A program made the translations under genes and the position numbers. Positions 13,506 through 60,943 of a DNA stretch of 64,000 bases are shown in pieces (the first letter of the stretch is position 1; each line of letters starts with the position of its first letter). Location of the stretch: NCBI GenBank assembly GCA_017394865.1, contig JAFPWT010000011.1, forward strand, positions 1 through 64,000, given 5' to 3'. Source of the stretch: Bacteroidales bacterium (GTDB lineage Bacteria > Bacteroidota > Bacteroidia > Bacteroidales > F082). A model generated the notes under the pieces. It ran no database searches, was not told the DNA's origin, and worked only from the letters and a program-made list of their open reading frames with translations.

Positions 13506-14774
13506 ATGGAACACTCAATGGACAGAAAAATCGAAAAGAAAAAAGGCTTTGCGCTAGCGTTTTCTAAGAAAGCGTTGCCGTATTGGGGTGCGGCTTTGCT
13601 GCTCGTCTTTATCCTTTGGCTTATCTTCAGGGACGACTCGAAGAAACTGCGCATCGATGCCGACAACATCAGCATTGCGACGGTGACTTCGGGCGAGTTC
13701 AACGACTATATCCGCATCAGCGGACAGGTGGCACCGATGACGACGATACAAATCAGCCCCTTGGAAGGCGGTGTGGTGCAACAGATTGTCACAGAGGAAG
13801 GCAGTCGCGTCAAGGCGGGGGATGTCATCGTCATCCTCAGCAACGAGAACCTCGACATGCAGATCCTTACCTCGGAGGCCGACCTTGCCGAGAAGGAGAA
13901 CATCCTGCGCAACACCATGATACAGATGGAACAACAGAAGCTGAGCGTGGAGCAAGAGAAGCTGCAGCTACAGATGGAGGTGCAACGCAACCGCCGCACA
14001 TACGAGGCGCAGCAAGCACTTTACAACGACGGCCTCATCGCCCGCGAGGACTTCCTGAAAGCCGAAGAGGACTATGAACTCTCGAGCAGCCGCCTCAGGC
14101 TGGTGGAGAACCGCGCCAAACAAGACAGCCTTCACCGCTCGGTGGAAATCGACCGGATGCGCGAGAGCCTTGAAAACATGCGCGTGAACATGATGATGAT
14201 CCGTAAGCGCAAGGAGAACCTGACCATCAAGGCACCCATCGACGGCGAGTTGGGTCTCTTGGATGTCGTGCTGGGGCAGTCGGTAGGGGCAGGCTCGAAG
14301 ATAGGACAAATCAACAACCTCGACAGCTACAAGATTGAGGCTCAGATCGACGAGCATTACATCGACCGCGTGACACCAGGCTTGGAGGCCACCTTTGAAC
14401 GGCAGAGCGAACATTATCAGGCGCAGATCCGCAAGGTATATCCCGAGGTGCGCGACGGCAAGTTCAAGGCCGACTTCAAGTTCATGGAGCAGCAGCCCGA
14501 GAACATCCGCAGCGGCCAGACCTATTACCTCAACCTGCAACTCGGCCAGCCCGTGGATGCCGTGCTCATCCCGCGTGGTGCCTTCTATCAGAAGACGGGC
14601 GGCAAGTGGATTTATGTGCTCTCATCTGATGGCAGCAAGGCCACGAGACGTGATATCCGCATCGGCAGGCAGAACCCGCAGTATTACGAGGTCATAGAGG
14701 GCTTGGAGCCTGGGGAGAGGGTGATTACTTCGTCGTATGATAACTTTGGGGAGAGTGATGTTTTGGTGTTTTGA
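13506..14774 (+). CDS. HlyD-family periplasmic adaptor (membrane fusion protein)
   Basis: A 422-residue adaptor. A cytoplasmic N-terminus is followed by one TM helix (about 23-41), a biotinyl-lipoyl-like half motif (IRISGQVAPMTTIQISPLEG), a long alpha-helical hairpin at about 110-235 rich in Glu, Gln and Arg, the second lipoyl half (IKAPIDGELGLLDVVLGQSV), then beta-barrel and membrane-proximal domains. It should link the inner membrane permeases to the TolC-like channel at 5066. It is the last gene of the operon; a terminator follows at 14901. An internal Met at 13518 is an alternative start. Confidence 0.9.
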   Translation: MEHSMDRKIEKKKGFALAFSKKALPYWGAALLLVFILWLIFRDDSKKLRIDADNISIATVTSGEFNDYIRISGQVAPMTTIQISPLEGGVVQQIVTEEGSRVKAGDVIVILSNENLDMQILTSEADLAEKENILRNTMIQMEQQKLSVEQEKLQLQMEVQRNRRTYEAQQALYNDGLIAREDFLKAEEDYELSSSRLRLVENRAKQDSLHRSVEIDRMRESLENMRVNMMMIRKRKENLTIKAPIDGELGLLDVVLGQSVGAGSKIGQINNLDSYKIEAQIDEHYIDRVTPGLEATFERQSEHYQAQIRKVYPEVRDGKFKADFKFMEQQPENIRSGQTYYLNLQLGQPVDAVLIPRGAFYQKTGGKWIYVLSSDGSKATRRDIRIGRQNPQYYEVIEGLEPGERVITSSYDNFGESDVLVF

Positions 14775-14778
14775 GGGA

Positions 14779-14838
14779 CTCCTCCGCCGCTACACGGCAC
14801 CCCCTAGATTGCTTCGTTACTCGCAATGACAGGAGGAC
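14779..14838. repeat. Intergenic inverted-repeat sequence
   Basis: The 3' flank of the hlyD-like gene holds nested inverted repeats: CTCCTCC (14779-14785) against GGAGGA, enclosing ATTGC (14808-14812) against GCAAT (14823-14827). The inner part, ATTGCTTCGTTACTCGCAAT, resembles dispersed intergenic repeats I have seen in many bacterial genomes. Only one copy lies in this window, so the dispersed nature is not shown here. The rest of 14839-14900 shows nothing I can name. Confidence 0.35.
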
Positions 14839-14900
14839 GGGGCAGATAAGACCATTAGACTATGAGTGGTTGACACGGGAGGGGGTGTTTGGGGTACGAA

Positions 14901-14935
14901 AAAACCCTAACTGCTTGATTGTCAGTTAGGGTTTT
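14901..14935. terminator. Bidirectional rho-independent terminator
   Basis: A perfect 13-bp stem: AAAACCCTAACTG (14901-14913) pairs with CAGTTAGGGTTTT (14923-14935) around a 9-base loop. The minus-strand side continues into a run of six T, so it ends the tRNA-Glu transcript; on the plus strand it can end the hlyD operon. Confidence 0.85.
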
Positions 14936-14944
14936 GGAAATTGG

Positions 14945-15021
14945 TGGTAGTCTCTCCGGGATTTGAACCCGAGTTACCAGGATGAAAACCTGACGTCCTG
15001 ACCAGACTAGACGAAGAGACC
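14945..15021 (-). tRNA. tRNA-Glu (anticodon UUC)
   Basis: Read on the minus strand, the acceptor stem is GGTCTCT/AGAGACT with a G1-U72 wobble. The anticodon loop TTTTCAT, flanked by TCAGG/CCTGG, gives anticodon TTC. The T arm has the loop TTCAAAT. CCA is encoded at 14945-14947 and a second CCA follows at 14942-14944. It has its own promoter at 15046-15075 and is followed by the strong hairpin at 14901. Confidence 0.95.
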
Positions 15022-15045
15022 ACTTCGTGTCAAAATTTGACGCTG

Positions 15046-15075
15046 CAAAATTACATAAAAATATCTTCCCTGCAA
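15046..15075 (-). promoter_or_regulatory. Housekeeping promoter of tRNA-Glu
   Basis: On the minus strand, TTG (15073-15075) lies 19 bp upstream of TAATTTTG (15046-15053), matching the Bacteroides -33/-7 consensus. A perfect 13-bp palindrome GTCAAAATTTGAC (15029-15041) lies between the -7 box and the tRNA 5' end. Confidence 0.7.
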
Positions 15076-15094
15076 CAAAAACCCCGAAATTTTT

Positions 15095-15937
15095 TTATTC
15101 GACTGTGACAGAGATCTGGAACTGCTTGTTTTTCATACTGTTAAGTGGATGAGCATAGAAATAAACTTGGTCATCGCTTAAAGCATTCAACAAGCCGAAA
15201 CCGAATTTTGCCTCCAGTCCCATCTTGAACCATTGGTTGTAAAAGTCGAATCCACCTCCAAACTCCAGCGCCAAGTCACCCGTTTTGTTCTTCAACCAAT
15301 TGAAATTCTGGTTCTTCTTCTTGAACGAGAAGTACAGTTTGGGGTTGACTCCGGTGATGAGATAGGCGGCCACGTTGTTGTATCGCTTCGACCGGTATTT
15401 CAGATGCAGTGGGAACTCCAAACAGCTCAGGTAGGGGTTGTGCGAGCCAGCGGTCATGATCTTTTTGCCGTCGGTCTGGTTGATCTGAAGCGTGTATCGG
15501 TAATTGATCTCGCTGAGGCTGAAGGTCGGGGTAAAACGCAGGTTGATGTACTCGCCCAGTCGCAAGTCGCCAATTAAGCCTATAGAGAAACCGATCCTTG
15601 GGATTGATCGCATCAATCGGTTTAGCGTGTCGCGCTCGACGTTGATGATCTGATAGCTTTGAAAATTTTCTTCCGAAATAGCCAACCCGTAGTTGGAGCT
15701 GCCGACAGAAGTGGGCAGATCTTGGAAGTTGGTGTAAACGTGATTCTGGTAATCTTCCTTCATGATCAGGTTGTAGTCCAAGAAGTTGGCACCGAGCATG
15801 AATCCGAAATGATAAGGAGCCTTGTCGTAGTTCTGCAAATAGATGATTTTGCGGCCCTGAGCCTGCACTCCAGTGACGCAAGCCATGGCAAGGATGAAAA
15901 GAAAAGCTATCTTGATGGTCTTTTTCACAGTGTTCAA
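15095..15937 (-). CDS. porT: PorT-family outer membrane protein (type IX secretion)
   Basis: A 280-residue protein with a signal peptide (MNTVKKTIKIAFLFILAMAC, ending near VQAQ) followed by beta-barrel strands with aromatic ends. The segment PYHFGFMLGANFLDYNL and the glycine-rich strands match the PorT family. PorT is needed for type IX secretion of proteins across the outer membrane in Bacteroidetes. Position downstream of a ubiE/menG gene is, from memory, the usual place of porT in this phylum. It is the last protein gene of the leftward operon starting at 18890. The other T9SS genes are not in the window. Confidence 0.75.
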   Translation of the reverse strand: MNTVKKTIKIAFLFILAMACVTGVQAQGRKIIYLQNYDKAPYHFGFMLGANFLDYNLIMKEDYQNHVYTNFQDLPTSVGSSNYGLAISEENFQSYQIINVERDTLNRLMRSIPRIGFSIGLIGDLRLGEYINLRFTPTFSLSEINYRYTLQINQTDGKKIMTAGSHNPYLSCLEFPLHLKYRSKRYNNVAAYLITGVNPKLYFSFKKKNQNFNWLKNKTGDLALEFGGGFDFYNQWFKMGLEAKFGFGLLNALSDDQVYFYAHPLNSMKNKQFQISVTVE

Positions 15938-15968
15938 TTTAAAACATTATAACGTCTTTAAGGTGTTT

Positions 15969-16688
15969 TTATTGTGTTTTGTCGCTGCTTTTTGCGACGA
16001 TTCCATGATACAAGGTAACGATGCCTCCGCTGAGTCTTTTGGCTTTGACTTGACGTAGCCCAGTGTCGTGCAGCATTGCGCAAAAGGCGTCATTGCCGGG
16101 GAAAGCGGCAACCGATGTGGGTAGGTATTGGTATGCGGTGGGATGTTTCGAGACAAGCCGACCCAATCGGGGGAGGAGGGCGGTCGAATACCAGCGGTAA
16201 GGCGCGGCAATCAAGGGATTCTTGGGGTGTGAGAACTCCAAAACGGCCACCTGTCCGCCGTCACGGCACACCCTTGTCATCTCACGGAGTCCAGCCTCAC
16301 GGTCGGCGAAGTTGCGGACGCCGAAGGCCACAGTCACCGTGTCGAAACTGCCATCAGCAAAGGGCATCTTGACCACATCACAGGTCTCAAGGTGGATGCG
16401 TTGGCTTAACTTTTTTTTGTGGATTTTCGTTCTGCCCTTCTCCATCATCTTTTCGGAAAGATCGATGCCGGTGATATGCGCTTCTGGGTTGTCGTGGGCT
16501 AGCCGTATGGCAAGGTCGGCGGTGCCAGTGGCCACGTCAAGGATGGTCTTTGGGTGCTGTCTTGTCACTAGCCGAGACGTCTTCCGTCGCCAGATTTTGT
16601 CGATGTGGAACGATAGGAGATGATCCAGAAAATCGTAGTGTGACGAGATGTCGTCGAACATCTCGGTGACGGCCTTCTGCTCACTCAT
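15969..16688 (-). CDS. menG: Demethylmenaquinone methyltransferase (MenG/UbiE)
   Basis: A 239-residue SAM-dependent methyltransferase. The SAM-binding motif I is ILDVATGTADLAIRL (about residues 50-65), followed by GIDLSEKMMEKGR and the family motif VTVAFGVRNFADREAGLREM. The C-terminal VAAFPGNDAFCAMLHDTGLR is also typical. It catalyses the last step of menaquinone synthesis; Bacteroidales use menaquinone for anaerobic respiration. Its start overlaps the 3' end of the upstream kinase gene by 8 bp, so translation is probably coupled. Confidence 0.93.
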   Translation of the reverse strand: MSEQKAVTEMFDDISSHYDFLDHLLSFHIDKIWRRKTSRLVTRQHPKTILDVATGTADLAIRLAHDNPEAHITGIDLSEKMMEKGRTKIHKKKLSQRIHLETCDVVKMPFADGSFDTVTVAFGVRNFADREAGLREMTRVCRDGGQVAVLEFSHPKNPLIAAPYRWYSTALLPRLGRLVSKHPTAYQYLPTSVAAFPGNDAFCAMLHDTGLRQVKAKRLSGGIVTLYHGIVAKSSDKTQ

Positions 16689-51080: not shown

Positions 51081-51857
51081 TTATTTTTTTGTACACACGA
51101 TTTGGTTTTTATATTTCAGATTCATCGTTTTGTAATCTTCCATCTCGCTGGTGCCTTGGTATTTCTCCAACAGGACTTTGAGCCGGTGGAGCTTGTCGCT
51201 TACCGCGCAAGTGTCGCCCAAGATCACTTGAACCGGAAGGTTGTTGACGATAACTTCGTTTTCTTTGTCGGTGTTTCTGTAGATCTGCCCGATATGTTCC
51301 TTAAGGAAAGTGTCTTTTTCAATGGCTTCTGCGATGGCCAGGGCTTCTGCAAGACCTGTGTCATGATACAGGCTGTCGGCGATGTTGCTGTTTTTGACGG
51401 GCATCGCGAACTGATAATTTCCGCTGGCGATGATCAGGTGGGGCGTATAATGGGGACTCGTCGGAATGATGTATCCGTCGCGGGTAATGTAGACCGATTG
51501 CCCGTCGTGGTTGTATACGCGGAGCACAGGATCGTATTCTTTGACGGAGACGCGCAGGGTGTCTTTAAGGTCGATGTAAGCGGCCGACTGGGCAATCCAA
51601 AGATTGTCATTGAGCATCTTGCTCACTTTTTTCAAGTCGACTCTGCCGATGGCGGTCTGGTGCTCTATGCCGCAAAGTGCGCGGATATGGGCTGTGAGAC
51701 TGTCATACTCGATAAAGCCTGAGTGTTTGTTTTCCGCAACGACCCGTACGTCTTTTAGGGGTGTATCGAGATACACCTTGCGACCGAAAACAAAGAGCGT
51801 GATGAGCGCAGCCCCGGTGACGACCCACAATATGATGCTTAACACTTTCTTTACCAT
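51081..51857 (-). CDS. ftsQ: Cell division protein FtsQ
   Basis: A 258-residue bitopic protein: short cytoplasmic N-terminus, one TM helix (about 6-24, ILWVVTGAALITLFVFGRKV), then a POTRA-like and beta domain outside (SKMLNDNLWIAQSAAYIDLK). FtsQ joins FtsL and FtsB at the division site. The assignment rests on topology and on its place between murC and ftsA. The ftsQ start overlaps the murC stop by 7 bp. Confidence 0.9.
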   Translation of the reverse strand: MVKKVLSIILWVVTGAALITLFVFGRKVYLDTPLKDVRVVAENKHSGFIEYDSLTAHIRALCGIEHQTAIGRVDLKKVSKMLNDNLWIAQSAAYIDLKDTLRVSVKEYDPVLRVYNHDGQSVYITRDGYIIPTSPHYTPHLIIASGNYQFAMPVKNSNIADSLYHDTGLAEALAIAEAIEKDTFLKEHIGQIYRNTDKENEVIVNNLPVQVILGDTCAVSDKLHRLKVLLEKYQGTSEMEDYKTMNLKYKNQIVCTKK

Positions 51858-53191
51858 TGGCTTATCATTGTTTTCAGGGGTTCAACAAAACGGTCGATAT
51901 TGCCTGCGCCCATGGTGACCAGCAGTTCGGGCTTGCGCTCGGCGATGACCTCGAGCAGGTTTTCCTTGGGGCAGAGGCTTTTGTCGTTTATTCTCACTTT
52001 CTCTAACAGCGCTTGCGAGGTGATCCCTTCGATAGGCTTCTCGCGAGCAGGGTAGATGTCGAGTAAAATCAGGCTGTCGGCCATTGCCAGACTTTCGGCA
52101 AACTCTTCCATGAAATCGCGTGTACGAGTGAAAAGATGCGGCTGGAAGACGAGCGTCATCTGTTTGGTCGGGAACGACGCTTTAATGGCCGACAAGCAAG
52201 ATTTTATTTCTTCTGGATGATGTGCATAATCATCAATGTAAACGTATTTTTCGTTTCTGACTTTAACGTCAAAGCGGCGTTTCACACCTTGGAAGGAGCT
52301 CAGGGCATGGTCAATCTCGTCGGCTTGCAGCCCGATCTGTCTGGCTGCAGCGAAGGCGGCGGTGGCATTCAGCACATTGTGTTTGCCGGCCATGGGAAGT
52401 TTGACGTTGGTCGTAGTGCCCTCGGCAGTGATGGTGAAGTCGGTGATGCCCTGCTCCGACCGTAGAATAGCGGCCTTGTAATCGCATCCTTCACCGAATC
52501 CGAAACGCAATATCTTCGTGGCTTTGACGTCGAGGCCTTCTTTGACGATGACGACTTTTTCGGTGAGCTGTGCAAAGTCGTTGAAACCTTCTACAAGGTG
52601 TTTCTGGTCACCATAGATGTCGAGATGGTCGGCGTCGATGGCGTTGATGACGCTGACTTCAGGGTGGAGCTGCAGGAAGGAACGGTCGAACTCATCGGCT
52701 TCCACCACGAGGGTGCTATCGGTGCCTTTGCCCAGCAGCAGGTTGCTGTTGAAGTTGTTGGCGATGCCGCCGATGAAGGCAGTGGTGTCGCGTCCGCAGG
52801 TGTGGAGGATGTGTGCCGTCATGGCCGTGGTGGTGGTCTTCCCGTGGGTTCCGGCGATGGCGATGGTGAAGTGTCTGTTGGAGATCTCGCCTAGGGCAGC
52901 GGCGCGTTTCAGCATGGGGATGCCGCGCCGTTTGATTTCTTCGATCTCCTTCAGGTCGGCGGGGACGGCCGGGGTGTAAATCACTTTGTCGATGAGGGCA
53001 GGCAATAGTTTTGGATTGTCTTCATAATGGATTGCCATGCCCTCATCTTCCAACAGTTTGGTGAGTGGGGAAGGGGTAAGGTCGTAGCCCGACACCTCTG
53101 CACCTTGGCTGTGGTAATACCTTGCCAGGGCGCTCATGCCGATGCCGCCTATGCCTAAGAAATAAATCCTATTTGTTCCCCTATTGTTCAT
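51851..53191 (-). CDS. murC: UDP-N-acetylmuramate-L-alanine ligase MurC
   Basis: A 446-residue Mur ligase. YFLGIGGIGMSALARYYHSQ is the UDP-binding N-terminal loop typical of MurC, AIAGTHGKTTTTAMTAHILH the ATP P-loop (near residue 110), VVEADEFDRSFLQLHPEVSV and NAIDADHLDIYGD the central Mur motifs, and RRFDVKVRNEKYVYIDDYAH with HP the C-terminal ligase domain. All three domains are complete. It overlaps murG by 4 bp and ftsQ by 7 bp. Confidence 0.97.
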   Translation of the reverse strand: MNNRGTNRIYFLGIGGIGMSALARYYHSQGAEVSGYDLTPSPLTKLLEDEGMAIHYEDNPKLLPALIDKVIYTPAVPADLKEIEEIKRRGIPMLKRAAALGEISNRHFTIAIAGTHGKTTTTAMTAHILHTCGRDTTAFIGGIANNFNSNLLLGKGTDSTLVVEADEFDRSFLQLHPEVSVINAIDADHLDIYGDQKHLVEGFNDFAQLTEKVVIVKEGLDVKATKILRFGFGEGCDYKAAILRSEQGITDFTITAEGTTTNVKLPMAGKHNVLNATAAFAAARQIGLQADEIDHALSSFQGVKRRFDVKVRNEKYVYIDDYAHHPEEIKSCLSAIKASFPTKQMTLVFQPHLFTRTRDFMEEFAESLAMADSLILLDIYPAREKPIEGITSQALLEKVRINDKSLCPKENLLEVIAERKPELLVTMGAGNIDRFVEPLKTMISQW

Positions 53192-54276
53192 TGCTTTATG
53201 TTTCTCAAGATAATATCGACGATGTCGTCGGCAGCGTTCGGACGGGCGAACTCGCCGATGTTGGCCTTCATCGCTTCCTGTTTGTCTTTGTCGTCAAGAA
53301 GCTGTTGAAGTGTGGGTATCAGTTTTTGTTCCGTCTCGTTGTTGCGGACCATCATGGCTGCGTCTGCTTCGACGAGTTGCATGGCGTTTTTGGTTTGATG
53401 GTCTTCGGCAGCAGTGGGCAGCGGCACAAAGATGACGGGCTTCTGCACCAGGGCAAGTTCCGAGATGGACATGGCGCCGGCGCGTGAGATGACGGCGTCG
53501 GCCACGGAATAGGCGTAGTCCATGCGGTCGATGAAGACGGTGGGTTTCACCTGTTCCTCCAAACCGAGTGCCTTCACCTCTTCCTGTGCTTGGGTGATAT
53601 AGGTCTTTCCGGTCTGCCATATGAGTTGTATGTCGGTGCCTTTGAGGGCGGCAAGCTGTGCGCTGATGCCTTTGTTGATGCCCAGAGCGCCTTGACTTCC
53701 GCCGACCAGCAGCACCACGGGCTTGCTGGCATCAACATTGAAGTAGGCAGCGGATTCCTGACGGTCACAGTTGCCGTTGATATTGCCACGGAGTGGGTTG
53801 CCAGTGAAGTGGATCTTCTCTTTCGGGAACCACTGCTCCAGTCCGTTATAGGCTACACAGATGGCACAAGCTTTCTTGCCGACATTGCGGTTGGTCTTGC
53901 CTGGGTAGGAGTTCTGCTCTTGGATGATGGTCGGGATATGTAGGAAGTTTGCAGCTTTTAGCGTGGGACCGCTGGCGAAGCCACCTACACCGATCACTGC
54001 ATCGGGCTTGAATCTCTTTAATATTCTCGCGGCCTTGTTCATGCTGTCGAAAATCTTGACGGGCAAGATGACGGATTTGACACTCTTCGTGAATCCACTG
54101 ATCCAAAGCCCTTCAATCGGGTAACCGGCTTTCGGCACACGATCCATCTCCATGCGTCCCTTAGCGCCGATGAAAAGGATCTCCGCCTCGGGACATCTGC
54201 GTTTCAACGCGTCCGCTATCGCTATCGCCGGGAAGATATGCCCGCCTGTTCCGCCTCCACTAATGACAAATCTCAT
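53188..54276 (-). CDS. murG: Lipid II synthase MurG
   Basis: A 362-residue GT28 glycosyltransferase that adds GlcNAc to lipid I. The N-terminal glycine loop ISGGGTGGHIFPAIAIADAL binds the lipid pyrophosphate; VGGFASGPTLKAANFLHIPT follows. The UDP-GlcNAc site is in VLLVGGSQGALGINKGISAQ and AVISRAGAMSISELALVQKP. Complete length. Overlaps ftsW and murC by 4 bp each. Confidence 0.97.
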   Translation of the reverse strand: MRFVISGGGTGGHIFPAIAIADALKRRCPEAEILFIGAKGRMEMDRVPKAGYPIEGLWISGFTKSVKSVILPVKIFDSMNKAARILKRFKPDAVIGVGGFASGPTLKAANFLHIPTIIQEQNSYPGKTNRNVGKKACAICVAYNGLEQWFPKEKIHFTGNPLRGNINGNCDRQESAAYFNVDASKPVVLLVGGSQGALGINKGISAQLAALKGTDIQLIWQTGKTYITQAQEEVKALGLEEQVKPTVFIDRMDYAYSVADAVISRAGAMSISELALVQKPVIFVPLPTAAEDHQTKNAMQLVEADAAMMVRNNETEQKLIPTLQQLLDDKDKQEAMKANIGEFARPNAADDIVDIILRNIKQ

Positions 54277-55586
54277 GATTCGGTTATTATTTGTTCGGTT
54301 TCTACTTTTTCTTCTGTTTCGCTTTCTGTCGTTTCTTCGTTCCGTTCCTTGTTTTCTGTATCTTCAACGCTTCGTGTAACGCTCAAGATCATTCCTATGG
54401 CAAAACCTGTCATGAGCATCGAGGTGCCTCCTTTGCTAACGAAGGGCAGCTGTTGCCCAGTGATTGGCAGCAGTCCTGTCGAGACCCCCATGTTGATCAT
54501 GGCCTGCATGATGAGGATGAAGGCGATGCCGAACGACATCATGGCTCCGAAGGTCAAAGGCCGTTTCTTCATGACGAGGACGGTTCGCGTGAGCAGAATG
54601 ATATACAGGAGCATGACGAAGGCTCCTCCAACCAGCCCGTATTCCTCTATGATGATGGCGTAGATGCAGTCGTTGTAGGGCTTGGGCAAGAAGTTACGCT
54701 GTGTGCTTTTGCCTGAACCTTTGCCGAATAAACCGCCTCTGGCAACAGCCATCTTGGCGTACATCTTCTGCCTGTTGCTATCGGTGATTTTCAAGGTTTT
54801 GCGAGCGGTGCTGTCGGCGACGGCGCCTTCTTCCTTTTTGGTTCGCGACTGCCAAGTCTTCACACGGCTGACTCTGGGTTTTTTCTTTATTCTTTCCTGC
54901 AAGCTGGCGTCTTTTGGGTGTAGATTGGCCTCGGCGACCAACTTATCATATCTGTTTTGCCTGATGGTTGCCACCGTCTCATCGGTCAGGATGTAAAGCG
55001 TGAGGCCTAGTACCGCGATGCCAAGGATGATCAGGATGTGTTTGAATTTGATCTGTCCAATGAAGAGCATCACGATGCATACCGTGAAGAGCATGGCGGC
55101 GGTGGAGAGGTTCTCTGGGAAAATAGGTGTTACAATCAGGAAGATGGGCAGGAAGATGGGAACAATGAGATCCTTGAATTTGTAGTCCCGGCTGTTCCAG
55201 ATGACAATGTATTTTGCTAAATAAACAATCAGAACGATTTTTGCGATCTCGCTGGGTTGGAATCCCATGAAACTTCTAGAGGCGTTGTGGCTTCTATCGC
55301 CCATGAAAGTGGTGAATATTAGCAGGATGAAGCAGAACAGCAGCACCAACTCGATGGCCCGTGAATAGCGACGGTAGTTGATCCTTGAGGCGATGAACAT
55401 CGTGACGAATCCTCCAAATACTGTGGCGGCATGTCTGATCAGGATTTGCTTGTTGTAAGCCCCGATGTTGTCGTAAGCCTCCTTACTGGTGGCACTGTAA
55501 ACCGCGATCAATGAGATGATGCCGAGCATGAGCATCACCACCCAGATGACACGGTCGCCTTTCAATATTTTGTTGATCCAACTCAC
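54273..55586 (-). CDS. ftsW: Peptidoglycan glycosyltransferase FtsW
   Basis: A 437-residue SEDS protein with about ten TM helices that polymerises septal glycan from lipid II. Motifs are LIAVYSATSKEA in the first helix, RSFMGFQPSEIAKIVLIVYL, VARGGLFGKGSGKSTQRNFL and GQQLPFVSKGGTSM. A basic loop of about 75 residues (about 215-280) between helices and a Glu/Thr-rich cytoplasmic tail (NKERNEETTESETEEKVETE) extend the protein. Family enzymes usually have an Asp in the large extracytoplasmic loop; here the corresponding stretch reads TPIFPENLSTAAM, with Glu-Asn instead of the usual Asp-x-Gly context. Confidence 0.93.
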   Translation of the reverse strand: MSWINKILKGDRVIWVVMLMLGIISLIAVYSATSKEAYDNIGAYNKQILIRHAATVFGGFVTMFIASRINYRRYSRAIELVLLFCFILLIFTTFMGDRSHNASRSFMGFQPSEIAKIVLIVYLAKYIVIWNSRDYKFKDLIVPIFLPIFLIVTPIFPENLSTAAMLFTVCIVMLFIGQIKFKHILIILGIAVLGLTLYILTDETVATIRQNRYDKLVAEANLHPKDASLQERIKKKPRVSRVKTWQSRTKKEEGAVADSTARKTLKITDSNRQKMYAKMAVARGGLFGKGSGKSTQRNFLPKPYNDCIYAIIIEEYGLVGGAFVMLLYIILLTRTVLVMKKRPLTFGAMMSFGIAFILIMQAMINMGVSTGLLPITGQQLPFVSKGGTSMLMTGFAIGMILSVTRSVEDTENKERNEETTESETEEKVETEQIITES

Positions 55587-55599
55587 GTTGCTTCCTCTT

Positions 55600-56154
55600 T
55601 TAGCAGGTCTGATTCAGTTTCTTTACTTCTTCCACAAATTGGTTGCCTCTATCGTCGTAGTCCATCCCGTGGTCCTTGCAGGCAGGCGAGAAGAGGACGA
55701 GGTCGTTCTCCTCGGCAATGATGGAGGCCATACGGACGGCTTCTTCGATGGAGTTGGCGCCGTAAATCTCCCTCACCGCGCCGCGGAACGTCATCTCAAT
55801 GTTTTCTTGCTCGCTTCCGATGCTGATGATGGTTTTCACCTTTTTCCGGGCGGTGTCGATCAGCTCGCTGTAGTTGCTGTGGAACGAGCCTCCCACAATC
55901 CACACTACTGGGTTGACGATGTTTTCGAAAGTGAACCATGTGGCGTTGACGCTCTCGGCTTTCGAGTCGTCATAAAACATGACACCGTCGATTGTGTTGA
56001 TGTACTGTTGGCGGTGCGATATGGTGTTGAAGTCGCCCATGCATTTCTTGATGTTCTCGTTTCTGATTTCAACGATCTTCGACGAGATGCCTGACGCCAT
56101 GTTTTCTTGGCGTTGTGGCTTTAGGGTTTCCGCTTTTGCAAATAAGTATCTCAT
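55600..56154 (-). CDS. MurD remnant: C-terminal Mur ligase domain only
   Basis: A 184-residue protein at the position of murD, between mraY (14 bp upstream) and ftsW. It resembles only the C-terminal third of MurD: QENMASGISSKIVEIRNENI, His47-Arg48, YDDSKAESVNATW (residues 61-73) and DDRGNQFVEEVKKL. Complete MurD has about 440-450 residues. The UDP-MurNAc-Ala domain and the whole ATP-binding domain (GTNGK-type P-loop) are missing. Some ligase residues are changed: the GG-x-DKG type loop reads VGGSFHSNY, and the segment after SPAC lacks the usual substrate-contacting Phe. The frame is open and has its own ATG, so it is not a simple frameshift. It cannot be an active ligase alone. It may be a remnant, or a domain with a new binding role. 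Confidence 0.75.
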   Translation of the reverse strand: MRYLFAKAETLKPQRQENMASGISSKIVEIRNENIKKCMGDFNTISHRQQYINTIDGVMFYDDSKAESVNATWFTFENIVNPVVWIVGGSFHSNYSELIDTARKKVKTIISIGSEQENIEMTFRGAVREIYGANSIEEAVRMASIIAEENDLVLFSPACKDHGMDYDDRGNQFVEEVKKLNQTC

Positions 56155-56168
56155 GTCTATTATGTTTA

Positions 56169-57443
56169 TTATCTAATTTTGAAGGTGATCAATGTAAATG
56201 CGGCCAGCAGGATGGTGATGATCCAAAACCGGATGGTGATTTTTACTTCATGATGGACGGTGTTGTGCCCTTCGCCGTAGCCTTTGAAGGTGACGGTGCT
56301 GTTGGGCCATGCTTTTTGGAAATCGCTGTAGCTCGTCCGGAAGTGGTCGTGCAACGGGCCTTTCTTCCAGATGCGGTGTTTCTTGCCTGTCTTGACGAAG
56401 CGTTTCACGTCGAGGTCGGAGAGGATCTCGAAGAGGAATACGCCGCAGAGCAAGGGCAGCAGCAGCTCTTTGTGCAAGAGGATGGCTGCGACGGCGATGA
56501 TGCCACCGATAGTGAGGCTGCCGGTGTCGCCCATGAAGATCTGAGCAGGGAAGGAGTTGAACCACAGGAAGCCGATGAGAGCACCGACGAAAGCGGCCAG
56601 GAACACTACCAGCTCTTCGCTGCCGGGGATATACATCAAGTTGAGGTAGTCTGCTGTCTTGATGTTACTGGAGATATAGGCTAGTAGTAACAAGGTTAGC
56701 CCGATGATGGCGGAGTTGCCTGAGGCCATGCCATCCATGCCGTCGTTGAGGTTGGAACCGTTGCTGACGGCGGCCACGATGAACACGGTGAGCAATACGA
56801 GGAAAATCCAGGCTAGTTTATACATCCAGTTGGGTCCGGCCCATTTGAACAGGTCGGCGTAATTCAAGTCGTGGCTTTTCACGAAGGGGATGGTGGTTCG
56901 GGTCGACTTCACTTTTGAAGTTTCCATCACGACTTCCTTGTTTTCTTCATTTTTTTCCACTTGGACGGTCATGGTCACGGCAGGGCTGAAACGCAGTGTC
57001 AATCCCACGATGAGGCCGAGTATAACCTGTCCTCCCAGTTTTACGATCGGCTTCAGGCCGTCTTTGCGTTTTTTGAAAGTCTTGATATAGTCGTCGGCGA
57101 AACCGATGATGCCAAGGATCAAGGTGGTGGCGACCATCAGGATGGTGTAGACGCTGTGTAGTTTGCCGATGAGCAGGATGGGAATCAGGATGGCCGCGAT
57201 GATGATGACGCCGCCCATAGTGGGTACGCCTTTCTTTGCCGTGTTATACGGGTCGGTCTTCTCGTCACGCTGGGTTTCGACGATTTGTTTCCGTTTCAGC
57301 ATCTTGATGAACCAGTTGCCGAACCACACGGAGACGACCAGCGCGAGGATAAGGGCAATGGCGGCACGGAAGGTGACGTAGGTGAAGACGCCTGCACCTG
57401 GAAAATCAATGCTATTTAAATATTTAAACAGATAGTATATCAT
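56169..57443 (-). CDS. mraY: Phospho-N-acetylmuramoyl-pentapeptide transferase MraY
   Basis: A 424-residue membrane enzyme with about ten TM helices that makes lipid I. Motifs are the Asp-Asp pair in IIGFADDYIKTFKKRKDGL, NLNDGMDGMASGN, and the C-terminal FKGYGEGHNTVHHEVKITIR preceded by LHDHFRTSYSDFQK (MraY-specific). A hydrophilic insertion of about 40 residues (VEKNEENKEVVMETSKVKST) is typical of Bacteroidetes MraY and explains the length. Follows murE after 3 bp. Confidence 0.97.
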   Translation of the reverse strand: MIYYLFKYLNSIDFPGAGVFTYVTFRAAIALILALVVSVWFGNWFIKMLKRKQIVETQRDEKTDPYNTAKKGVPTMGGVIIIAAILIPILLIGKLHSVYTILMVATTLILGIIGFADDYIKTFKKRKDGLKPIVKLGGQVILGLIVGLTLRFSPAVTMTVQVEKNEENKEVVMETSKVKSTRTTIPFVKSHDLNYADLFKWAGPNWMYKLAWIFLVLLTVFIVAAVSNGSNLNDGMDGMASGNSAIIGLTLLLLAYISSNIKTADYLNLMYIPGSEELVVFLAAFVGALIGFLWFNSFPAQIFMGDTGSLTIGGIIAVAAILLHKELLLPLLCGVFLFEILSDLDVKRFVKTGKKHRIWKKGPLHDHFRTSYSDFQKAWPNSTVTFKGYGEGHNTVHHEVKITIRFWIITILLAAFTLITFKIR

Positions 57444-57446
57444 GGC

Positions 57447-58901
57447 TTATTTCTCCTTTAATGCTTTTGACAGCTCTTCTTTGTCGTCGAAGTGCCGCTT
57501 CTCTCCTTTGATGATCTGATAGTCTTCGTGTCCTTTGCCGGCCAGCAGGATGATGTCGCCTTTCTGGGCCAGTGCCACAGCGGTGCGTATGGCTTCGCGA
57601 CGGTCGGTGATGGAGAGTACCTTGCGCGTCTCGTCAGCGCTGATGCCTTCTTTCATCTGGCGAATGATCTCATCGGGATCTTCGTTGCGGGGGTTGTCGC
57701 TGGTGAGGATGACCTTGTCGCTGAGTTTTACGGCAACGGCGGCCATCTCGGGCCTCTTGCTGGTGTCTCTGTTTCCGCCGCAGCCAGCCACTGTGATGAG
57801 GGATTGCCCAGGTTTCCTCACTTCATTAATGGTTTTCAGCACGTTTTCCAGGGCGTCGGGGGTGTGGGCGTAGTCGACAATGCCGACGATGCCGCTGTCG
57901 CTGTGTACCATGTCGAATCGCCCGTTGGCACCATGCAGTTTGCTGATCTCGACCAGCAGCTCGTTTTTGTCGAATCCCAGTGCGAGCGCTGCACCGTAGA
58001 TGGCAAGGATGTTGCTGGCGTTGAAACCGCCGACCAGCAGGGTGTGAAGCTCGGTGCCATTGACCTTCATGAGCATGCCGTCGAAGTGGCTTTCCAGCAC
58101 GATGCCTTTGTAGTCGGCATCATGTTTCAGGGCGTAGCTTAGCTTACGTGCTTTGGTGTTTTGCAACATCACGGCGCCGTTCTTGTCGTCGAGGTTGGTC
58201 AGTGCGAAGGCATCCTGAGGCAGGTCGTCGAAGAATTTCTTCTTGGCGTTGCGGTAGTTGGCCATGGTCTTGTGGTAGTCGAGATGGTCGTGGGTTAGGT
58301 TGGTGAAGATGCCTCCGGCAAAATGCAGTCCTGCAACGCGGTGCTGATCAACGGCGTGGGAGCTGACCTCCATGAAGGCGTATTCGCATCCGTGGTCCAC
58401 CATTTTTCTGAGCAAAGCGTTTAACTCTACGGGATCGGGAGTGGTATGGGTGGAGGGGACGACTTCGTGGTCGACGATGTTCTCGATGGTAGAGAGGAGC
58501 CCACAGGCGTATCCGGCGTCGCTGAAGAGGCGATAAAGCAGGGTGGCGATGGTGGTCTTGCCGTTGGTTCCCGTCACGCCTGTCAGCTTCAGCTGCCGCG
58601 AGGGGTTGCCATAGAAGTTGGCGGCTGCTACGCCTAGCACATATGCGCTGTTGTCTACTTTGATGTAAGTGACGTTTTCACGCAGTGTCTTGGGTAACTT
58701 CTCGCACACGATGGCGCTGGTGCCTTTGTCCAAAGCGTTTTCAATATAGGCGTGTCCGTCGGTCTGGGTGCCTTTCACAGCGAAGAAAAGAGTGCCGGGA
58801 GCCACGTCGCGTGAATCGAACGACACTTTGTCGATGTCGATGTTCTTGTCGCCGATGAGCTCCAACAGGTTGCAGTTTACTATAATGTCTTTGAGTTTCA
58901 T
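57447..58901 (-). CDS. murE: UDP-MurNAc-L-Ala-D-Glu:meso-diaminopimelate ligase MurE
   Basis: A 484-residue three-domain Mur ligase. The start at 58901 (MKLKDIIVNC) overlaps the ftsI stop (ATGA) and gives the usual N-terminus. FDSRDVAPGTLFFAVKGTQT binds the UDP substrate, GVTGTNGKTTIATLLYRLFS is the P-loop, and the C-terminal TSDNPRNEDPDEIIRQM contains DNPR, the motif for meso-diaminopimelate. So the peptidoglycan is predicted to be of the DAP type. Complete, in contrast to the MurD-like gene two positions downstream. Confidence 0.97.
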   Translation of the reverse strand: MKLKDIIVNCNLLELIGDKNIDIDKVSFDSRDVAPGTLFFAVKGTQTDGHAYIENALDKGTSAIVCEKLPKTLRENVTYIKVDNSAYVLGVAAANFYGNPSRQLKLTGVTGTNGKTTIATLLYRLFSDAGYACGLLSTIENIVDHEVVPSTHTTPDPVELNALLRKMVDHGCEYAFMEVSSHAVDQHRVAGLHFAGGIFTNLTHDHLDYHKTMANYRNAKKKFFDDLPQDAFALTNLDDKNGAVMLQNTKARKLSYALKHDADYKGIVLESHFDGMLMKVNGTELHTLLVGGFNASNILAIYGAALALGFDKNELLVEISKLHGANGRFDMVHSDSGIVGIVDYAHTPDALENVLKTINEVRKPGQSLITVAGCGGNRDTSKRPEMAAVAVKLSDKVILTSDNPRNEDPDEIIRQMKEGISADETRKVLSITDRREAIRTAVALAQKGDIILLAGKGHEDYQIIKGEKRHFDDKEELSKALKEK

Positions 58902-60943
58902 TTCCTTGCTAGTGTTAATTTGATCAAACCTCCCGCTCGCAATGAATCGCCTGCAGGTACAGATTGTTGAACGACTTGTCCGTGTCCCTCGAAAGTGGTG
59001 ATCCATCCCATGTTTTCAAGCAGGTAGATGGCGTCGGTGACGTTCATCCCTTTGGTGTCGGGTACTACCATGGGTGCATATTGCGACGGGTCGGTGACGG
59101 GTTTGTATTCGACGAGTTTGGATTCGTCTTTCTCTAATGGTGTTTCAATCAGTCCTTTGATGCGGATGGCGTATACTCTGTCGGCGATTTCCCTGAAGAT
59201 CGGAGCGGCCACTGTGCCTGCAGCTCTATGGGCCTTGTTGACCACCACGATGCAACTGTATACTGGCTGTTCGGCGGGGAAGAATCCCACGAAGGTGACG
59301 TTGTAGTTTCTTTCAGCCCTGCCTTCCGCATTGATCCATTCATAGGAATGGGTCTTCTCGTTATAGAGCTTTGCCGTGCCGGTTTTACCTGCGATACCGT
59401 ATTCGGTGCCGTTCTGTCTCTTGGCAGTGCCGCGCAACACAACGCCTTGCAGCATGCTTTGGATGGTGTCGATGGTCCTTGGTGATGCGATATGTTCGTT
59501 GAGCACCACGGGATCGATGGTCTGGAGCGTGACGCCGTCTTTCCTTACCTCTTTGACGAACATGGGTTTCATCATCCGGCCGTCATTGGCAACGGCATTG
59601 TATAGCGTGAGGATTTGCAAGGGCGACAGTTTAACCTCATAGCCGATTGACATTCTGGACAGCGAAGTCTTCCACCATACATCTTTGTTGTGTATGGGGT
59701 GCTTGATTTCGGGTGCGGCTTCTCCAAGTATACCCGTGTTCAACCGCTGGTTCAGTCCCAGGCTATAGAGGCCGTCGATGTATTCTTCGGGGTGGTTTCC
59801 GAAATAGTCGGTGATCAGTTTTGCGGTGCCTTTGTTGGACGACTGCTCAAACACTTCGCGGATGGTTACCCAGCCGCTTTCGTTGATGGCGTGGTCGTCG
59901 GCCATCGGCTTGCCGCCAAAGCTGAGTTTCGATCCGGCTACGCCGATGTTGACGTTTCTGGTGTTGACGTTGAGTTCCGGATGTTTCTCCAGCAGCACCA
60001 GCATGGAGGCCAGTTTGAAGGTGGATCCAGGTTCGATGCCGTCGGCGAGGGCAAAGTTGTAGTCTTCACGGCATTGGTTGGTGGAATAGTCGCGCTGGAG
60101 GTTGGTGAGGGCTTTTATCTCGCCTGTTTTTACATCCATGACAATGGCGCAGCCTTGATAGGCGTTGTTCTCGATGAGGGCGTCGCGCAGTGTGCGCTCG
60201 GTGATGTCTTGGATGCCAATGTCAATGGTGGTAACGATATCGTTGCCGTTGACGACTTCGATATTGTTCTCGTCTTCGACGGGAACCCAGATGTTGTTGT
60301 CGCCATCGTGTATTTTGCGTTGCTTGTGCAGTCCGTCTTTTCCACGCAGGATGGTGTCGTAGGCGCTTTCAAGTCCGACAATTTTGCCTTTCTTGATGTA
60401 CCCAACGATACGTCCCGCCAGGGGGTCGTAGGGGTGGATGCGGATGAATCTGGGATCTTTTTTGAGGAGTCCCACTGTTTTATTCCCTTGATGGAAGATG
60501 CTGCATTTCTCAAGTTCGTGGTATTGGGCCAGCGTGGCATTGGCGTCGAGACGATAGTCTTTCTTGTTGCCTTTTTTGGCGTTGCTGATGCTCTCTTTCC
60601 ATTGCTTGACATTTTTTCTGGGGAACATCTCAGCCAGCTTTTGGCACAGTTCGTCCAAGCCCTTTTTAAAGATGGTGTCGGGAATGGCGGAAGGGTTGAT
60701 GCCGACTTCGAAGATCGGGACGTCGGTGGACAGTATGCTGCCGTCGCAGGCGAGGATGTCGCCTCTCGAAGCCTGTACGGTATCGTAACGGGTCTCCATC
60801 TGTTCGGCAAGGGCGCGTAGCTCATCGCCTTCCTTGGTTTGGACAAGAACGGCTTTGACCAATATCAATATCCCTACCGCCAGCACTGCGATATATACCA
60901 GGAACGTCCTGATCATACTCTTCGTTTTCGGGTCCCGTTTCAT
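58898..60943 (-). CDS. ftsI: Septal transpeptidase FtsI (PBP3) with PASTA domain
   Basis: A 681-residue class B penicillin-binding protein. One TM helix (about 10-32), then a dimerisation domain (about 55-220). The transpeptidase has SxxK in PGSTFKLASM (near residue 305), SxN in EQSSNKGTAK and KTG in GIAGKTGTAKLY. A C-terminal PASTA-like domain (VVPDTKGMNVTDAIYLLENM) is present. It cross-links septal peptidoglycan with FtsW. It overlaps ftsL by 4 bp and murE by 4 bp. Confidence 0.95.
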   Translation of the reverse strand: MKRDPKTKSMIRTFLVYIAVLAVGILILVKAVLVQTKEGDELRALAEQMETRYDTVQASRGDILACDGSILSTDVPIFEVGINPSAIPDTIFKKGLDELCQKLAEMFPRKNVKQWKESISNAKKGNKKDYRLDANATLAQYHELEKCSIFHQGNKTVGLLKKDPRFIRIHPYDPLAGRIVGYIKKGKIVGLESAYDTILRGKDGLHKQRKIHDGDNNIWVPVEDENNIEVVNGNDIVTTIDIGIQDITERTLRDALIENNAYQGCAIVMDVKTGEIKALTNLQRDYSTNQCREDYNFALADGIEPGSTFKLASMLVLLEKHPELNVNTRNVNIGVAGSKLSFGGKPMADDHAINESGWVTIREVFEQSSNKGTAKLITDYFGNHPEEYIDGLYSLGLNQRLNTGILGEAAPEIKHPIHNKDVWWKTSLSRMSIGYEVKLSPLQILTLYNAVANDGRMMKPMFVKEVRKDGVTLQTIDPVVLNEHIASPRTIDTIQSMLQGVVLRGTAKRQNGTEYGIAGKTGTAKLYNEKTHSYEWINAEGRAERNYNVTFVGFFPAEQPVYSCIVVVNKAHRAAGTVAAPIFREIADRVYAIRIKGLIETPLEKDESKLVEYKPVTDPSQYAPMVVPDTKGMNVTDAIYLLENMGWITTFEGHGQVVQQSVPAGDSLRAGGLIKLTLARK

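Follow-up and report, generated by a model that had tools for sequence, protein, structure and literature searches.

A stand-alone MurD C-terminal domain in Bacteroidales that carry a MurL homologue, and its possible derivation from an isoform of murD

In the 64,000-nucleotide stretch of Bacteroidales DNA analysed here (hereafter the window), a short open frame lies between mraY and ftsW, the place at which canonical murD likewise sits (Table 1). MurD is a textbook essential enzyme and a drug target. A sequence-only reading of the window had proposed that this place holds only the C-terminal ligase domain, in an open frame with its own start, without a P-loop and with intact flanks (14 bp to mraY and 13 bp to ftsW), and profile searches and coordinates bear out each of these points. 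The 184-aa protein matches Pfam Mur_ligase_C (1.8e-7, 32.5 bits, cut-off 28.4). Its match to the NCBIfam murD model TIGR01087 (5.3e-32) is limited to profile positions 279-440 of 441 and, at 111.5 bits, falls below the cut-off of 211.95, so that the protein does not qualify as a MurD ligase. A Pfam search found no Mur_ligase_M (PF08245), the ATP-binding middle domain with the P-loop and catalytic Lys, at 55600..56154; six Mur_ligase_M loci lie elsewhere in the source genome, two of them inside the window. For the ftsW neighbour, the RodA model ranks second after TIGR02614 among the NCBIfam profiles. The source assembly measures 2.08 Mb in 19 contigs and is 73% complete.

Table 1. Coordinates of the stand-alone MurD domain gene, of selected codons within it and of its dcw neighbours in the window.
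Feature	Position	Strand	Details
murC	51851..53191	-	TIGR01082 419 bits, above cut-off; Mur_ligase_M present
murG	53188..54276	-	TIGR01133 297.3 bits, above cut-off
ftsW	54273..55586	-	downstream neighbour, 13 bp gap; top match TIGR02614 237.2 bits, below cut-off 337.5
stand-alone MurD C-terminal domain gene	55600..56154	-	184 aa, ATG start; C-terminal end of domain 2 and domain 3
Asp63 codon (E. coli MurD D317 position)	55966..55968	-	Asp in 63/63 stand-alone proteins
Arg48 codon (E. coli MurD R302 position)	56011..56013	-	Arg in 55/63, Lys in 8/63 stand-alone proteins
ATG start of the gene	56152..56154	-	lies 18 residues ahead of the xMAS Met (17 for the internal Met of full-length MurD)
mraY	56169..57443	-	upstream neighbour, 14 bp gap; TIGR00445 240.1 bits, above cut-off
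murE	57447..59006	-	NF001126 633.2 bits, above cut-off; Mur_ligase_M present

The predicted structure of the protein has a mean pLDDT of 78, with low values before about residue 50 (34-row alignment), and its 33 top Foldseek matches are MurD structures that identify the fold of domain 3. In sequence and fold the lone domain is like domain 3 and the end of domain 2 of canonical MurD (the borders of these domains are those we assume for the 184-aa protein), but at about 185 aa it is without domain 1 or the ATP-binding domain, and D-Glu contacts are often lost. Weaker matches include 6h5e and 8r6s, which we take to be MurT of GatD/MurT and the Mur-ligase-like subunit of plastid RNA polymerase; these are likewise Mur-ligase folds outside the classical ligase step, although the matched chains of 394 and 539 residues are unlike a lone C-terminal domain.

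Ligand positions were compared in what we take to be the E. coli MurD numbering, in which K348 and S415 are presumably contacts of D-Glu, and R302 and D317 presumably contacts of the nucleotide. In the protein from the window the R302 and D317 positions are retained, and the K348 and S415 positions do not hold Lys and Ser. The earlier claim that several substrate-binding residues are altered is thus borne out at the K348 and S415 positions. Among 63 stand-alone proteins, Lys is found at the K348 position in 12 and Ser at the S415 position in 37, so that the retained set differs from what a D-Glu ligase needs. Because it has no ATP-binding domain and its D-Glu contacts are often gone, the lone domain is not a D-Glu ligase.

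How, then, does the source organism obtain its D-Glu? Contig C4 of the assembly encodes a full MurD-type ligase of 417 aa with its own C-terminal domain (TIGR01087 314.6 bits, above the cut-off, over positions 1-439). It is preceded by a MurL homologue, the two frames (13542-14906 and 14899-16152) overlapping by 8 bases. The latter protein scores 254.9 bits over 358 positions of NF041275, and since this is under the Xanthomonadales equivalog cut-off of 700 bits we term it a MurL homologue only. The C4 ligase bears the specificity Glu and Arg of MurD2 (NVFEEHLDH, GGFDRD), as do all 18 MurD2-type ligases compared (18 of the 19 loci given); in one genome, G036, the MurD2-type ligase and MurL lie on separate contigs. 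A profile search for the glutamate racemase MurI gave no match in the 73% complete assembly. In the portion of the review by Ogasawara and Dairi available to us, Xanthomonas MurD2 is described as adding L-Glu, which MurL then epimerises, and as turning into a D-Glu ligase when Glu197 and Arg358 are jointly replaced by Asp and Lys; Bacteroidales are not among the taxa named there for MurD2-MurL (PMC8788868). The arrangement found here is alike in pairing a MurD-type ligase that has the Glu and Arg with an adjacent MurL homologue where MurI is not found, and differs in that the Bacteroidales MurL scores far under the Xanthomonadales cut-off and that a stand-alone MurD domain is present in addition. 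Given the C4 ligase, the MurL homologue, the MurD2 residues and the lack of a murI match, D-Glu in the source organism would most likely be made by MurD2-MurL, with epimerisation after ligation. The sequence-only reading had left the choice between an intact MurD at a different locus, the lone domain being retained for some other function, and D-Glu added in another way. Each proves partly apt: the C4 ligase over the cut-off and the conservation of the lone domain fit the former, and the gene pair, its residues and the missing MurI point in part to the latter.

This pattern extends to the order. Of 295 genomes sampled from it, 97 have a MurL homologue, none of which scores above the NF041275 cut-off. 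We compared 80 of the 96 other MurL-positive genomes with 80 of 198 MurL-negative genomes, the latter chosen by handle order with G052 excluded. MurI passed its cut-off in 0 of 80 MurL-positive genomes (13 had weak matches below it) versus 74 of 80 MurL-negative ones, which together with the lack of a match in the 73% complete source assembly led us to reject MurI as the D-Glu source. Two MurL-negative genomes, G087 and G110, likewise have no MurI, and an overlooked MurL is therefore possible there. Sequence comparison gives good support to the view that MurD2, by adding L-Glu, and MurL, by epimerising it, would make both the canonical MurD ligase and MurI dispensable.

Several further observations concern the ligases themselves. 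Forty-four MurL-positive genomes retain a full-length dcw MurD though no MurI passes the cut-off. We considered whether these are dead enzymes and rejected this, since the 42 of the 44 that were aligned have every checked site intact (the P-loop Lys and the E157, H183, K198, R302, D317, K348 and S415 positions). Open frames of 885-996 aa occur in G114, G142, G218 and G308, where identical frame lengths for the MurL and MurD2 matches point to possible MurL-MurD2 fusions; frames in the same size range in G019, G021, G024, G028 and G031 have the MurD2 match only. On contig C12 of G000, at about 97000-100000, lies an 824-codon open frame with a Mur ligase, and the part after the ligase resembles, we presume, alanine racemase.

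Within the genus, 32 of 36 genomes, the window's included, have a readable stand-alone copy at this position; the genomes without a readable copy are G002, G003, G006 and G013, and in G003 the contig stops short of the place. Because the short gene recurs in place in this way, a collapsed deletion at the locus, which had been raised as a concern, is ruled out. Full-length murD at this place in relatives, the observation that would have spoken against the sequence-only reading, is seen in other families and in none of the 32 readable genomes of the genus. A scan of named genomes, with a search pattern biased toward the genus, yielded 76 loci, 76 of 76 with an open copy and ftsW nearby. They are titled Bacteroidales, Bacteroidia or, once, Candidatus Limimorpha equi, and the names of several indicate gut samples from buffalo, sheep, goat, yak, deer or horse.

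Across the order, the 80 MurL-positive genomes comprise 30 with a stand-alone copy, spanning 18 further families, 44 with a full-length gene, 2 contig-edge cases and 4 without a match that scores like dcw MurD (L155 and L157 were excluded as contig-edge). The 80 MurL-negative genomes comprise 1 with a stand-alone copy (G050), 78 with a full gene, one of them split across two contigs, and 1 contig-edge case (G087). The difference in the stand-alone state is highly significant (Fisher p 1.9e-10), and eight families contain both states. In a sample of 138 genomes from the phylum there was no stand-alone copy besides that of the window; two of these genomes gave no match, and one extra 88-aa piece was found at a contig start. 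Among the genomes examined, then, the lone domain recurs in the order almost only together with a MurL homologue. A search of the literature, mainly of freely readable papers, found nothing on a stand-alone MurD C-domain, on a MurD isoform or on MurL in Bacteroidales. The copy in G050 (L240, 3423-4058) is divergent; in this 98% complete assembly no MurD, MurD2, MurL or MurI was detected, and one of its four Mur_ligase_M loci is murE.

The gene of the lone domain is under selection at the protein level. Its median dN/dS is 0.19 over 410 non-independent pairs (maximum 1.05; pairs were retained only at an ftsW dS between 0.1 and 1), compared with 0.17 for ftsW, 0.11 for murE and 0.09 for mraY. 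On the strength of this median, of the open frame in all 76 named loci and of the Asp present in every one of the 63 stand-alone proteins, we rejected the idea of a pseudogene. The word "degenerate", used of this domain in the sequence-only reading, thus suits the ligase site and not the gene, which is under purifying selection. Among the pairs listed, mraY shows similar dS but two ranges of dN, about 0.03-0.09 and about 0.21-0.24, suggestive of a segment that differs, or aligns differently, in part of the genus.

The history of the truncation was approached with two quick trees, which differ in what they allow. On a tree of FtsW and MraY (119 of 140 rows, 20 genus rows having been thinned out and 1 lacking FtsW; the 35 MurL-negative rows are for the most part the loci with the best score), the stand-alone state requires 16 changes, of which at least 9 are forced by well-supported branches. 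Such branches unite stand-alone and full-length sisters in G084/G194, G108/G212, G069/G183, G129/G231 and G040+G159/G257. A single stand-alone clade is rejected on these proteins (AU p 2e-11) in a test with 28 of the 31 non-genus stand-alone rows and 18 of 41 full rows, from which G038, G157 and G050 were omitted as they fall outside the MurL clade of the 119-row tree. The tree of the C-domain itself (178 columns, 60 rows: 18 slower-evolving, hand-chosen stand-alone rows and 42 full rows) has 11 changes and does not reject one clade (AU p 0.40), and only in 2 of 10 cases is a stand-alone copy closest to the full MurD of its own family. Since FtsW and MraY reject one clade, though the C-domain tree does not, truncation has likely happened repeatedly; a less likely alternative would be transfer of an already truncated gene.

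Full-length MurD proteins have an internal Met nine residues before the Gly that precedes one further residue and HN (as in MTLEELALQGKHN), 17 residues ahead of the xMAA Met. In 42 of the 63 stand-alone proteins a Met stands at precisely this distance from the xMAA position, and in another 15, among them that of the window (one residue off), it is at most two residues away; the other 6 have none within two residues. In most, the Met so placed is the first of the frame. Among scored full-length rows, 38 of 40 MurL-positive ones and 30 of 35 MurL-negative ones have the internal Met (two rows misfit the motif). So do 26 of 27 rows scored for further orders and classes of the phylum, out of 29 loci that had the highest scores in the 138-genome sample. 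By alignment, its column holds Met in 70, Ile in 6 and Leu in 1 of 77 rows (0.91). Met conservation alone proves little, because two other MurD Met columns are similarly conserved (0.88 and 0.90) and because, among solved MurDs, that of S. agalactiae also has Met here, with Leu in E. coli and Ile in A. baumannii. The Met may be structural.

In Flavobacterium johnsoniae, A at -3, -6, -12 and -13 together with low structure is described as favouring initiation (PMC6847099). At the internal ATG of MurL-positive genes, A occurs at -3 in 71%, at -12 in 66% and at -13 in 61% of cases. Other internal ATGs have 35, 41 and 20% at these positions and a local folding energy of -11.1, compared with -4.7 at the conserved one. 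A-6 is not enriched (21% and 7%, the former in MurL-positive genes). In MurL-negative genes A-3 and A-12 both reach 67%, A-13 only 23%, and the folding energy is -6.8. When codons were shuffled synonymously, with amino acids fixed and codons drawn from the usage of each genome, the site proved less structured than expected in MurL-positive genes (z +1.18, 38 genes, p 1e-10 versus other positions) and in MurL-negative genes (z +0.81, 30 genes, p 9e-7); the z-scores for A and for GC are significant only in the former (p 0.19 and 0.08 in the latter). The low-structure signal peaks at the internal ATG or, in genomes from outside the order, no more than six codons away, and is absent at four other MurD Met columns and at the corresponding site of MurD2, where Met is found in 0 of 15 usable rows. 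Single A positions can be high elsewhere, with A-3 at 84% and 68% at Met column 344 and A-12 at 62% and 55% at Met column 284. Taken as sequence, the context in full-length murD appears to resemble that of translation starts in Bacteroidota more than the encoded amino acids require, whereas the other conserved Mets and MurD2 do not. A codon-usage dip near the domain junction, present for reasons of folding, is a possible cause of the same signal.

These observations lend themselves to an explanation in which murD would yield, besides the ligase, a C-domain isoform with a non-ligase job that was kept where the ligase became dispensable, and we hold this to be slightly on the probable side. In full-length murD of Bacteroidota, translation would also begin at the conserved internal ATG, a step with moderate support, giving a product of about 185 aa whose role is not that of a ligase. 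Once MurD2-MurL had taken over D-Glu installation and the canonical ligase and MurI had become dispensable, the ligase part would have been lost, probably more than once, and what remained of the gene would encode nothing but the isoform, from the same Met onward. The broadest form of this idea seems to us plausible without quite reaching an even chance: murD would be a two-product gene throughout Bacteroidota, with a phylum-conserved internal start for a C-domain isoform that has a further role in the growth of the envelope, and lineages with MurD2-MurL would repeatedly have reduced the gene to that isoform. As to its role, the isoform could dock to or regulate the membrane-side precursor complex (MraY, MurG, FtsW) or another Mur ligase. 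That the lone domain docks to the MraY/MurG/FtsW complex is a guess that we would expect to fail about twice as often as it held. Its context is the location of the gene, with mraY and ftsW on either side, and the reported binding of Thermotoga MurD, MurE and MurF to MurG and MreB (PMC6420597).

The chief alternative is domain reuse without any isoform, in which 5' deletions after the arrival of MurD2-MurL turned a structural Met into a start and the role exists only in the truncated lineages. We regard this as possible but rather doubtful. It can draw on the hydrophobic residues of the Met column, which include Met in the proportions given above, on the Met of S. agalactiae MurD and on a C-domain tree that permits a single origin, but it does not account for a start-like context, beyond an amino-acid cause, in full-length genes that include MurL-negative ones and those of other orders, or for the absence of this context in MurD2. 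The remaining explanations dispense with a role of the protein or return it to ligation. A remnant on its way to loss, that is, a pseudogene not yet deleted, would fit the erosion of ligand residues in many lineages and the 4 of 80 MurL-positive genomes without a match scoring like dcw MurD; the low dN/dS, the uniformly open named loci and the invariant Asp argue against it, and we consider it very unlikely. Scarcely better off, and in our view marginally worse, is action in trans, with the lone domain lending its surface to the ATP-binding domain of MurD2 or another Mur ligase: the kept R302 and D317 positions are presumably nucleotide contacts, as such a role would have it, but MurD2 carries a C-terminal domain of its own and the Lys of the K348 position is missing from most stand-alone proteins.

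Two further explanations set the protein aside altogether. Were the frame kept only for translational coupling between ftsW and mraY or for operon spacing, with the protein unused, the gaps of just 14 and 13 bp to the neighbours would be natural, but coupling requires a frame and not conserved amino acids or a conserved fold, which makes this reading highly improbable. An assembly or binning artefact might be suspected in a genome that is 73% complete and in 19 contigs; as the same structure is found in many other assemblies and families, we rejected it and give it practically no credence.

Conservation of a MurD domain in the absence of the ligase would imply that MurD has a function other than ligation, and the naturally shortened copies would indicate which part of MurD is responsible for it. 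In D-Glu metabolism, the 97 of 295 sampled genomes of the order that have a MurL homologue would stand apart from their MurI-using relatives.
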